This document shows, piece after piece, positions 10,532 through 21,934 of a DNA stretch of 21,934 nt. The position numbers and the translations under genes are program-made. Origin of the DNA: a virus. Location: IMG/VR virus record IMGVR_UViG_3300017734_000098, positions 1-21,934 of that record; one strand, written 5' to 3'. How positions within the stretch are numbered: the stretch's first letter is position 1; every line of letters starts with the position of its first letter. The notes below the pieces were generated by a model. That model ran no database searches, was not told where the DNA came from, and saw only the letters and a program-made list of their open reading frames with translations.

Positions 10532-10539
10532 CAAATATA
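10532..10539 (-). promoter_or_regulatory. TATATTTG promoter box for the scaffold-capsid unit
   Basis: The minus strand reads GTATATTTG, then 14 A-rich bases, then the ATG of the 104-residue gene at 10517. It is an exact match to TAnnTTTG and identical to three other boxes in this window. It lies in the 23-base gap after the 80-residue basic-protein gene. No terminator is visible before it. Confidence 0.6.
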
Positions 10540-10540
10540 C

Positions 10541-10783
10541 TTACTTTTTCTTCTTACCTTTTCCTGCCCTAATCTTAGCGGCTTCTCTCTTCCCAAAAGC
10601 AGACTTCACTCTCGCCATAGCCCATGCGTGCTGAGACACCTTAGGCCTGTTACCAGAGCTCATGTATGCGGCAAGCCCTCTCTTGTACACCTGCTTCTGA
10701 GCTGCACTCAAGCTGGCGTAGCCTTTACCCTTGCCCTTCTTTTTCTTTGAGGATATCTTCCCACCTTTTTTTAAAACAATCAT
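10541..10783 (-). CDS. Small basic protein with Lys-rich ends
   Basis: An 80-residue, extremely basic protein. It begins MIVLKKGGKISSKKKKGKGK and ends in KGKKKK, with a helical centre (about 22-68) containing SAAQKQVYKRGLAAYMSSGN and HAWAMARVKSAFGKREAAKI. The central helices with Lys-rich tails suggest a nucleic-acid-binding protein. It overlaps the upstream 63-residue gene by four bases (ATGA). It is the last of four consecutive basic genes between the fibre/adhesin block and the scaffold. I do not recognise a named family. A DNA-binding protein packaged in the virion is a plausible guess. Confidence 0.55.
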   Translation of the reverse strand: MIVLKKGGKISSKKKKGKGKGYASLSAAQKQVYKRGLAAYMSSGNRPKVSQHAWAMARVKSAFGKREAAKIRAGKGKKKK

Positions 10784-10971
10784 AGCTTATCTCTTTGCGC
10801 CATGAGCCTCTTGAGTCTAGCAGCTACGGCGGGTGGGAATCCTTTCTTTTTTCTCTTTGCTTTTGTTCCTCTATACTTATCGTAGATGGCAGAAATTTGA
10901 GCCATCAGCTTTTTTCTTTTGCCAACGTTAGAGCTACCCTTAGTGTACTTAGCGTTGAACTTCTTAGCCAT
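10780..10971 (-). CDS. Small basic protein
   Basis: A 63-residue basic protein beginning MAKKFNAKYTKGSSNVGKRK. A helix with KLMAQISAIYDKYRGTKAKR follows, then a KRKKKG patch and a second helix ending in LKRLMAQRDKL. The gene overlaps the upstream 58-residue gene by eight bases and the downstream 80-residue gene by four (ATGA), so the set is translated as a coupled series. Two helices separated by a strongly positive patch would suit binding to DNA or RNA. Family not recognised. Confidence 0.5.
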   Translation of the reverse strand: MAKKFNAKYTKGSSNVGKRKKLMAQISAIYDKYRGTKAKRKKKGFPPAVAARLKRLMAQRDKL

Positions 10972-11140
10972 GACTGGCTGTCTTAAAGTCCGCCTTTTCT
11001 ACAGCACCAGGGTGTGGCTTGTAGTCTCCCTCCATGAGATAGTATCTACCACCCTCAAGCATCCAGTGGTATCCCTTAGGAGGATCCACTGCGATCTTCT
11101 TCTTACCGACCTTGAGCTTACCTTTCTTGTACGCCTTCAT
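10964..11140 (-). CDS. Small basic protein
   Basis: A 58-residue protein starting MKAYKKGKLKVGKKKIAVDP. The frame could be extended to a GTG at 11167, but the ATG at 11140 shares one base with the stop of the upstream 92-residue gene (TAATG), the same arrangement as at several other junctions here, so I take that start. The basic N-terminus leads into GYHWMLEGGRYYLMEGDYKP, a beta-hairpin-like aromatic segment, and then HPGAVEKADF. The protein is probably a small beta fold with a positive arm. Function unknown; position in the basic cluster suggests a virion-internal or DNA-contacting role. Confidence 0.5.
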   Translation of the reverse strand: MKAYKKGKLKVGKKKIAVDPPKGYHWMLEGGRYYLMEGDYKPHPGAVEKADFKTASHG

Positions 11141-11418
11141 TACCACTTGACTTTGTTTGCCCACCACGCTGCACTCATCTTGCCACGGGCGATGTTCTTC
11201 CTGTGACGATCCTTGAATGCTTTACGTTGCTTGGCGTTTTGATTTGTCTTTGCACCCTGCTCTCCAAAGCGGATAAGCTTCACCTTGTTGCCCTCCTTTG
11301 CCAACACGATGTGTGACTTTTTAGAATGCTTAGGTGTGCGCTTCGCTTTGTTTACGCCAGAAAGCCCATGCTTTTTGAGCATGCGCTTGATTCTGGATCT
11401 GAGGGCTTCGGTACTCAC
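11140..11418 (-). CDS. Small basic phage protein (KMSAAxWANKxKW family)
   Basis: A 92-residue basic protein with a GTG start. It has helices near the N-terminus (LRSRIKRMLKKHGLSG), a middle strand pair SHIVLAKEGNKVKLIRFGEQ, and a C-terminal signature RHRKNIARGKMSAAWWANKV. I know close versions of this signature from small proteins in many marine phages, usually next to structural genes and without a proven function. The GTG lies four bases after a TATATTTG box. Met-13 is an alternative start but would remove a helix that relatives appear to have. It leads the four-gene basic cluster. A nucleic-acid-binding virion component is possible. Confidence 0.6.
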   Translation of the reverse strand: MSTEALRSRIKRMLKKHGLSGVNKAKRTPKHSKKSHIVLAKEGNKVKLIRFGEQGAKTNQNAKQRKAFKDRHRKNIARGKMSAAWWANKVKW

Positions 11419-11422
11419 AATA

Positions 11423-11430
11423 CAAATATA
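11423..11430 (-). promoter_or_regulatory. TATATTTG promoter box before the basic cluster
   Basis: The minus strand reads ATATATTTG, then TATT, then the GTG start at 11418. It is an exact TAnnTTTG match filling the 12-base gap after the 74-residue gene. As at 6278, only four bases separate the box from the start codon. Confidence 0.6.
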
Positions 11431-20922: not shown

Positions 20923-20935
20923 TGTATTTAATTTG

Positions 20936-21009
20936 TACGCCCGACAGGATTCGAACCTGTGACCGTTTGCTTAGAAGGCAAATGCTCTATCCAACTGAGC
21001 TACGAGCGC
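20936..21009 (-). tRNA. tRNA-Arg (anticodon UCU)
   Basis: A full cloverleaf of 74 bases on the minus strand. The acceptor GCGCTCG pairs with CGGGCGT (with two G-T pairs), the D arm is GCTC/GAGC, the anticodon stem is TTTGC/GCAAA with loop CTTCTAA, and the T arm is ACAGG/CCTGT with loop TTCGAAT. The anticodon TCT is at 20973-20975 and reads AGA and AGG. The discriminator base is A and the CCA end is not encoded. It sits in a 93-base gap between the 44-residue and 43-residue genes. A phage tRNA of this kind usually supplements host supply for AGA-rich phage genes. Confidence 0.93.
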
Positions 21010-21379: not shown

Positions 21380-21620
21380 AGTTTACGTATAAAGGTGTTT
21401 TCTCTCCGAGGTATGATCCTACTACATTGTAGTCTAGAAACTCTACCGCGTCTTCATAGTCGGTGCCGTCTTTCATTAAGATCTCTACCATCTTGTTTAT
21501 GTCATATACGGCGACCACGTTGGCTCCGTAGGTACAGCCAACAAGGGCGTCATCAAATCCGTCTGCGGTGAGGCACTCCTCTTCTTCGAGGATCTCCATC
21601 AGGTATTCCTTTCCAATCAT
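21351..21620 (-). CDS. Conserved short phage protein
   Basis: An 89-residue acidic protein. It has MIGKEYLMEILEEEECLTAD, then a segment DGFDDALVGCTYGANVVAVY, and then DYEDAVEFLDYNVVGSYLGE, followed by TPLYVNF. The pattern 'FDDAL(V/I)G...AVYD...M(V/I)EIL...(Y/E)EDA.EF..(F/Y)N..G.Y.GE.TP' recurs in uncharacterised proteins of phages and bacteria; I have no function for it. Its ATG overlaps the stop of the GroES-like gene by four bases (ATGA), so it is translated with it. The 29-base overlap with the next gene is on the other side. Confidence 0.6.
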   Translation of the reverse strand: MIGKEYLMEILEEEECLTADGFDDALVGCTYGANVVAVYDINKMVEILMKDGTDYEDAVEFLDYNVVGSYLGEKTPLYVNFVTQEVHNT

Positions 21621-21934
21621 GACTCTACGTATAAGAAGTCCTGAGCACGAGTTCTGTAATACTCCTTGCCGTCGATCTTGATGCGGTAGTCCATGCTCTT
21701 GGGGATACCTACAACATCTCCTACCTCTACACCAAGCTCCTCAATCCACGGAGCCGTGAACGCAACACGACCAGTCTTTACTGGCTTCTCCTTGAGCTCT
21801 ACCAGTTCTATAATCTTGCTATCCTCCTTGACCTCTTCCTCTACTGGCTCAAGCAAACTCCAGCCGCCAAGCGGAACGATATCCCCCTCTGAGTTCTTGT
21901 AAGCAATAGCCTGTGATTCGGTTGCTGTCTCAGG
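21617..21934 (-). CDS. GroES-like co-chaperonin, 5' end missing
   Basis: The frame runs from the right edge to a stop at 21617-21619; the N-terminus is beyond the window. The visible 105 residues read like the Cpn10/GroES family: VPLGGWSLLEPVEEEVKEDS at the start of the barrel, a mobile-loop-like stretch IIELVELKEKPVKTGRVAF, then ELGVEVGDVVGIPKSMDYRI, and the closing KIDGKEYYRTRAQDFLYVES. The family order 'L.PV...KxG.V...VxVGDxV...DGxEY...xDxL' is intact, and the visible part is slightly longer than a typical Cpn10 of about 97 residues. It would cap a GroEL ring of the host and could help fold the capsid protein, as T4 gp31 does. No GroEL partner is visible here. Confidence 0.7.
   Translation of the reverse strand, partial: PETATESQAIAYKNSEGDIVPLGGWSLLEPVEEEVKEDSKIIELVELKEKPVKTGRVAFTAPWIEELGVEVGDVVGIPKSMDYRIKIDGKEYYRTRAQDFLYVES

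Follow-up and report, generated by a model that had tools for sequence, protein, structure and literature searches.

Tlr6F/DUF5754, DUF5824, DUF5872 and DUF6321 belong to the commonest uncharacterised families of viral proteins and have usually been treated singly. Tlr6F was reported to occur in almost every polinton-like virus as well as in many giant viruses, several virophages and some phages (PMC4642659; PMC12220804), where it was listed without a known function (PMC4642659), and a haptophyte giant virus was found to encode both DUF5754 and DUF5872 (PMC12085832). No literature naming DUF5824 was found in open-access text. The internal proteins of T4 were described as small, basic, variable between relatives and provided with a common N-terminal capsid-targeting sequence (PMC9026906). 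Here four small genes of an uncultured phage are described which form a conserved four-place cassette, the places of which are held by swapped, unrelated occupants. This arrangement is well supported among the related loci compared; the component families were already known one by one, and a limited search of open-access text yielded no description of an exchangeable four-place cassette.

The window, i.e., the whole stretch of DNA analysed, comprises 21,934 nucleotides. The phage's capsid protein is about 30% identical to the capsids of Cellulophaga phi38:1, Flavobacterium Elemovirus and Maribacter Panino, and a 1557-aa protein carrying the crAss muzzle C-terminal domain (PF25729) is found at the end of the module, the gene order being terL, portal, p117, a 1069-aa protein, a LamG-like protein, p74, the four cassette genes, p104, scaffold, capsid, p135, p273, p245, p275 and the 1557-aa protein. 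No protease was identified within the window. As the preliminary description had it, four consecutive genes encode 92, 58, 63 and 80 residues (hereafter p92, p58, p63 and p80), with successive overlaps of 1, 8 and 4 nt. These genes, all on the minus strand, make up the cassette: p92 at place 1 (11418-11140, GTG start, net charge +24), p58 at place 2 (11140-10964, net +7, pI 9.7), p63 at place 3 (10971-10780, net +19) and p80 at place 4 (10783-10541, net +24, with Lys-rich ends). The claim that all four are very basic fits p92, p63 and p80 but overstates p58, which is moderately so. The remaining genes of the window, the 43-mer discussed below excepted, range from -42 to +5, the most acidic being the scaffold at -42. 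The cluster had also been located between the adhesin block and the scaffold, and this position is right on both sides, but an acidic 74-aa gene lies between it and the former and an acidic 104-aa gene with a promoter box of its own between it and the latter.

The single promoter box proposed for the cluster was recovered as TATATTTG (11430-11423, minus strand), which precedes the first gene, opens the cassette and is of the Bacteroidetes -7 type TAnnTTTG. A second copy (10532..10539, minus strand) lies at the cassette end, ahead of the p104-scaffold-capsid genes, and the portal and p245 genes are preceded by the box as well. The cassette is predicted to be expressed jointly, from a box shared with other structural genes, as had been suggested. 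Of the relatives, 49/61 have TAnnTTTG no more than 130 nt ahead of place 1, versus 273/3400 (8%) random windows. Conservation in independent contigs, the fixed order and the box upstream of place 1 together establish that the four reading frames are real genes, beyond chance. Within 11382-11430 the distance from the box to the GTG of p92 amounts to 4 nt, for which reason a leaderless mRNA is conceivable, as is initiation at an internal ATG (codon 13); relatives have an ATG near the GTG position.

The fifth small basic protein, of 43 aa and mentioned earlier as preceding the terminase, is indeed encoded directly upstream of terL (20922-20791, minus strand, net +16). It lies outside the cassette, gave a profile match in just 2/80 loci and by eye resembles short GQGR-ending proteins near other late genes (HTVC104P gp63, S-EIV1). 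A tRNA-Arg gene (anticodon TCT; 20935-21009, minus strand) is located between this gene and a 44-aa gene upstream of terL, and a 79-aa reading frame (21617-21856, minus strand) shows sub-threshold similarity to Cpn10/GroES (E 0.0012); GroES/GroEL genes were also seen near the p92 homologue in Elemovirus and MW202828.

p92 matches phrog_7595 over its full length (E 3e-29, residues 10-92 on profile positions 5-96 of 96) and, more weakly, a phrog annotated as minor head protein and DNA pilot (E 2e-4). Its AlphaFold2 model (pLDDT 89.6) consists of one helix, then a beta-hairpin, then a pair of helices, the conserved residues being G, W, H and N. When this fold was compared with predicted viral structures, phage XkdF (E 0.0024), Tunisvirus V9SE36 (prob 0.98, E 0.01, TM 0.44; compared by fold only) and ICP1 ORF125 (E 0.027) were retrieved, and ICP1 Gp125 is a predicted prohead protease (PMC9040626; PMC7567579). 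Aeromonas phage 2L372X carries a p92 domain (approximately residues 80-150) directly before an XkdF-type Peptidase_S78_2 domain (176-287); p92 resembles these fusions in the domain that precedes the protease and differs from them in standing alone, without a protease domain. The rV5 proteome paper yielded nothing on the p92-bearing protease protein. The PF19058 profile of Tlr6F/DUF5754 matches neither p92 nor anything else in the window, but the Elemovirus homologue, which the p92 profile retrieves (E 4e-18), passes the PF19058 cut-off (E 1.5e-12). As just such distant homologues pass it, p92 is to be regarded as a relative and not as a member of Tlr6F/DUF5754, to which the homologue, and perhaps the fold match to the Tunisvirus protein, links it and from which an added N-terminal helix sets it apart; the connection is thus a transitive one only. 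In three related loci (L052:2122-4854, L077:6937-7251 and L081:6240-6554) the p92 frames lack a stop after the conserved KW and read on through a hydrophobic segment, that of L052 leading into an 895-aa ORF with an end reminiscent of a type IX secretion sorting domain, and in two further related loci (L058:3194-4075 and L064) the p92 domain is fused to an extension of about 200 aa beginning KKYEDGG.

p58 and p63 are without a curated family. p58 possesses the conserved core HWM...GRY..M and is the hallmark of the cassette; its assignment as RcnB was rejected (15.7 bits versus a cut-off of 25.9, over 17 residues). The preliminary description recognised a family signature only in the 92-mer, which has to be corrected, as p80 also matches a Pfam family above its cut-off, namely DUF5824 (PF19141, 34.8 bits versus 25). 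This likeness is confined to the core of p80 (residues 27-61), which covers profile positions 72-106 and hence 35/127 of the profile, and p80 differs from the family by its Lys-rich tails and its tie to p63. The p80 model shows a three-helix core with a disordered basic N-terminus (pLDDT 73.9). Sequence searches of the PDB with profiles of all four proteins gave no matches, and Foldseek against the PDB returned chance-level matches alone for p80 and for p92, with no DNA-binding fold found for either and no histone or HU match for p92.

The rules by which the cassette is composed emerged from 80 IMG/VR loci with a related capsid, inspected over 10 kb per side where available, in which families were detected by iterative searches and then by profiles for all occupant families; 68 of these loci make up the non-redundant set, and KRKF, LRSW, HTAH and X100 (the last being DUF6321) are working names. 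By iterative searches p58 was found in 69, p92 in 52 and p63 and p80 in 20 each of the 80 loci. The gene order is fixed across the clade, and where one cassette family is missing another small basic ORF occupies its place. Within the non-redundant set, place 1 holds either p92 (37 loci) or a DUF6321 protein (24 loci) and never both, for which Fisher's test gave p=1.7e-12, a value that is not a strict probability because the loci share kinship. Place 2 is held by the 58-aa family, and places 3 and 4 by one of the pairs p63+p80 (DUF5824), DUF5872a+b or KRKF+DUF5872/LRSW, the pair types never being mixed; p80 accompanies p63 in 15/15 non-redundant p63 loci, it never occurs without p63, and four loci (L006, L011, L032 and L052) have both fused into one ORF. 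The commonest complete combinations are p92-p58-DUF5872a-b (16 of the 68), DUF6321-p58-KRKF-DUF5872c (13), the window's own p92-p58-p63-p80 (10) and DUF6321-p58-KRKF-LRSW (3), the remaining loci having mixtures or partial sets. Mapped on the capsid tree, the occupants require a minimum of 12 switches at place 1 and of 18 at places 3-4. The window itself is an example, as its nearest capsid relatives (L002, L003) have, behind p92 and p58, a fused DUF5872 pair where the window has p63+p80. Profile comparisons revealed no usable homology between p92 and DUF6321, p63 and KRKF, p63 and DUF5872a, p80 and DUF5872b or KRKF and DUF5872a; the two DUF5872 forms are related to each other, and so, via a short profile match, are the KRKF proteins of the clade and of pelagiphages. 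The co-occurrence check proposed beforehand for the four genes was therewith strongly positive, documenting a conserved, ordered set in the clade loci. Strict places, exclusive substitutes and linked pairs together imply that each place represents a function which unrelated families can supply.

Some of these otherwise unrelated proteins have N-termini in common. One module, FPDLxxDGKVxxxDILKGRGV, is common to p58, p80 and a p63-p80 fusion, and another, KLPxxVRNxMGYMxxGG, to p58 and p80. A shorter motif, K(x)GG, occurs within the first 25 residues of 65/223 cassette proteins as compared to 13.4 expected (maximum of 26 in 500 shuffles), an enrichment which is inflated by shared ancestry within families, and of 12/793 other ORFs as compared to 6.7 expected; it was found in several unrelated cassette families and is absent from p92. 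This putative leader recalls the capsid-targeting sequence common to T4 internal proteins. Two related loci (L077:18090-18983 and L069:18128-18916) encode, downstream of the tail genes, a protein of 262-297 aa with the N-terminus MKSKKSYKKY..GG, the C-terminal motif GGEYIFNP and similarity to the virion structural family phrog_13764 (E 4e-5), which makes it a candidate ejection protein.

Judged by homology, complete or nearly complete sets are present in unrelated marine phages of SAR11, Roseobacter and Prochlorococcus. HTVC106P (SAR11) encodes p92, p58, a KRKF-like protein (gp26) and LRSW (gp25) in the order of the clade, CRP-901 (Roseobacter) KRKF, LRSW, p58 and p92, HTVC104P DUF5872a, p58 and DUF5872b, CRP-13 p92, DUF5872a and DUF5872b, HTVC027P KRKF, LRSW and DUF6321, and HTVC111P with its relatives HTAH, a p63-like protein and p80; homologues of p58 are thus found in HTVC106P, CRP-901 and HTVC104P. 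The Prochlorococcus siphophage MED4-184 has p63-like, p80, HTAH and p92 genes between a MuF head-morphogenesis gene and a scaffold gene matching phrog_206, the T7-like P-SCSP2, also a phage of Prochlorococcus, has KRKF, HTAH (by eye), LRSW/DUF5872 and DUF6321 between scaffold and capsid, and S-TIP37 has a DUF6321 gene in the latter position. Many of the unrelated carriers accordingly hold about one representative per place, the order differing. DUF5824 is matched by proteins of HTVC111P, MED4-184 and the T4-like HTVC008M, the last of which has DUF5824 and p92 in or beside its cytidyltransferase, while Melnitz combines both within one cytidyltransferase polypeptide. Some pelagiphage and roseophage homologues adjoin endolysin genes and not capsid genes; head-module placement is therefore common, not universal. 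Neither p92 nor KRKF was matched in phi38:1 or in Panino, two relatives that have been cultured, so that phages of the wider group can do without the set. Large phage proteins of phrog_727, phrog_3477 and phrog_28131 contain KRKF and/or DUF6321 modules and thus represent cassette members as domains.

The T4 proteins IPI, IPII and IPIII resemble the cassette proteins in being small, basic and encoded with head genes, in forming a set that varies between relatives and perhaps in short N-termini common to otherwise unrelated proteins; the likeness does not evidently extend to sequence, and the cassette has four fixed places, T4 a loose set. T4-GC119 of the T4-like cyanophage S-P4 is a polypeptide of 529 aa (net +63) that unites LRSW-like (by eye), KRKF (E 5e-28) and DUF6321 (E 7e-24) modules, which are separate genes in the cassette; it differs in being a single gene adjoining gp16 in a T4-like myovirus.

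The charge of the cassette proteins and their position in the head module, both of which had been emphasised at the outset, are borne out. The accompanying idea of histone- or protamine-like condensers is not: p92 is confidently folded and lacks a charged tail, which leaves a literal protamine reading unsupported, p58 has a conserved core at just +7, and p80 has a three-helix core. As the best explanation, with a probability of about 0.5, the proteins are considered exchangeable late head-assembly or internal-head proteins, possibly associated with DNA. Head assembly is indicated by the position among portal/MuF, scaffold and capsid genes in this clade, MED4-184, P-SCSP2 and S-TIP37 together with the occurrence of p92 in prohead-protease proteins, and the endolysin-adjacent placements still fit late expression. 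The exclusive alternatives and their repeated switching, the promoter box in common with structural genes, the N-terminal K(x)GG and the precedent of T4 speak in favour of this explanation too. Against it weigh the placements at endolysin or cytidyltransferase genes, the missing matches in phi38:1 and Panino, and the failure to find a DNA-binding fold or, in the window, a protease. The estimate was held at this level, with other explanations kept, because T4-GC119, the multi-module homologue in S-SM1, a cyanophage with a virion proteome measured by mass spectrometry, is annotated there as hypothetical and not as structural (PMC3037559), the S-P4 homologue being labelled structural. T4-GC119 was for the same reason dropped as proof of virion presence. 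Also dropped was the argument that DUF5824 occurs in virions by way of the cyanophage cytidyltransferase T4-GC190, detected by mass spectrometry; it had been drawn from the DUF5824-bearing cytidyltransferases of HTVC008M and Melnitz, and S-SM1 has no DUF5824.

Another explanation, to which we assign a minor but real share, takes the proteins as helpers of late infection that bind nucleic acids inside the cell and do not stay in the virion, for instance in condensing replicated genomes or assisting terminase or prohead protease. Their charge and position between packaging and capsid genes would suit such helpers, as would the p92 domain preceding the XkdF protease domain and the DUF6321/KRKF polyprotein T4-GC119, which has the small terminase gene (gp16) as its neighbour and carries no structural label in S-SM1; placement on the scaffold/capsid side in unrelated phages and on the endolysin side in others would be left unexplained, and no fold similarity to DNA-binding proteins was found for p80 or p92. 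It is rather improbable that the proteins are ejected counter-defence or host-takeover cargo, their exchangeability reflecting an arms race. Repeated swapping of unrelated families in one place would be expected of such cargo, the internal proteins of T4 differ from one relative to another, with IPI acting as an inhibitor of a restriction enzyme (PMC9026906), and the tag-like N-terminus is also borne by the putative virion protein of L069 and L077. However, the same families occur in phages of Bacteroidota, Alphaproteobacteria and cyanobacteria, and DUF5754 and DUF5872 also in eukaryotic viruses (PMC12085832, PMC12220804), a span that argues against a host-specific target, and four strictly kept places are unusual for arms-race cargo.

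Frequent switching could mark a mobile recombination hot-spot where small basic genes of any kind accumulate and no function is shared, the more so as the families are widespread and also form domains of many larger proteins; random collection would not be expected to yield a strict order, places with exclusive occupants, linked pairs or complete sets shared by unrelated phages, which renders this improbable. Least credible is a role as ribosome- or RNA-polymerase-binding early proteins, which the small size, the basic charge and weak matches of p80 to ribosome modulation factor (Foldseek E 5.6, TM 0.22) and of the p92 profile to ribosomal protein L24 (E 0.2) might suggest: both matches are at chance level, p80 was hence rejected as ribosome modulation factor, location and box are typical of structural genes, and early-gene neighbours are absent.

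Within the preferred reading, i.e., exchangeable head-assembly or internal-head proteins, the cassette would be a modular set of small late proteins inserted into head-assembly modules, each of the four places having a job that several unrelated small families could do and the families being swapped as single genes or linked pairs. The likeliest site of action would be the prohead: a charge opposite to that of the scaffold suggests that the proteins enter together with the acidic scaffold or replace it as DNA arrives. They may then attach to the DNA as it comes in, or to the inside of the capsid, and remain in the head as internal proteins, of which some might be ejected, whereby their mode of action would be like that of the basic internal proteins of T4 and unlike that of protamines. 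Late expression, presence in prohead or virion, contact with DNA and ejection are in this sense what we infer. More tentatively, and with less confidence than the head-assembly reading itself, the cassette could be a portable four-part kit organising DNA or a core inside the head, with parts functionally equivalent across unrelated families, which is passed around among podo-, sipho- and myophages infecting unrelated marine hosts and has Tlr6F/DUF5754 and DUF5872 in common with giant and polinton-like viruses.

For the family, the finding means that a relative of Tlr6F, p92, now has a cassette, partners, a confident predicted fold and a fusion to prohead-protease proteins. The rules of composition suggest that Tlr6F/DUF5754, DUF5824, DUF5872 and DUF6321 would act together in defined roles, some of them interchangeable, and a list of orphan families may thereby turn into one testable system in culturable phages.
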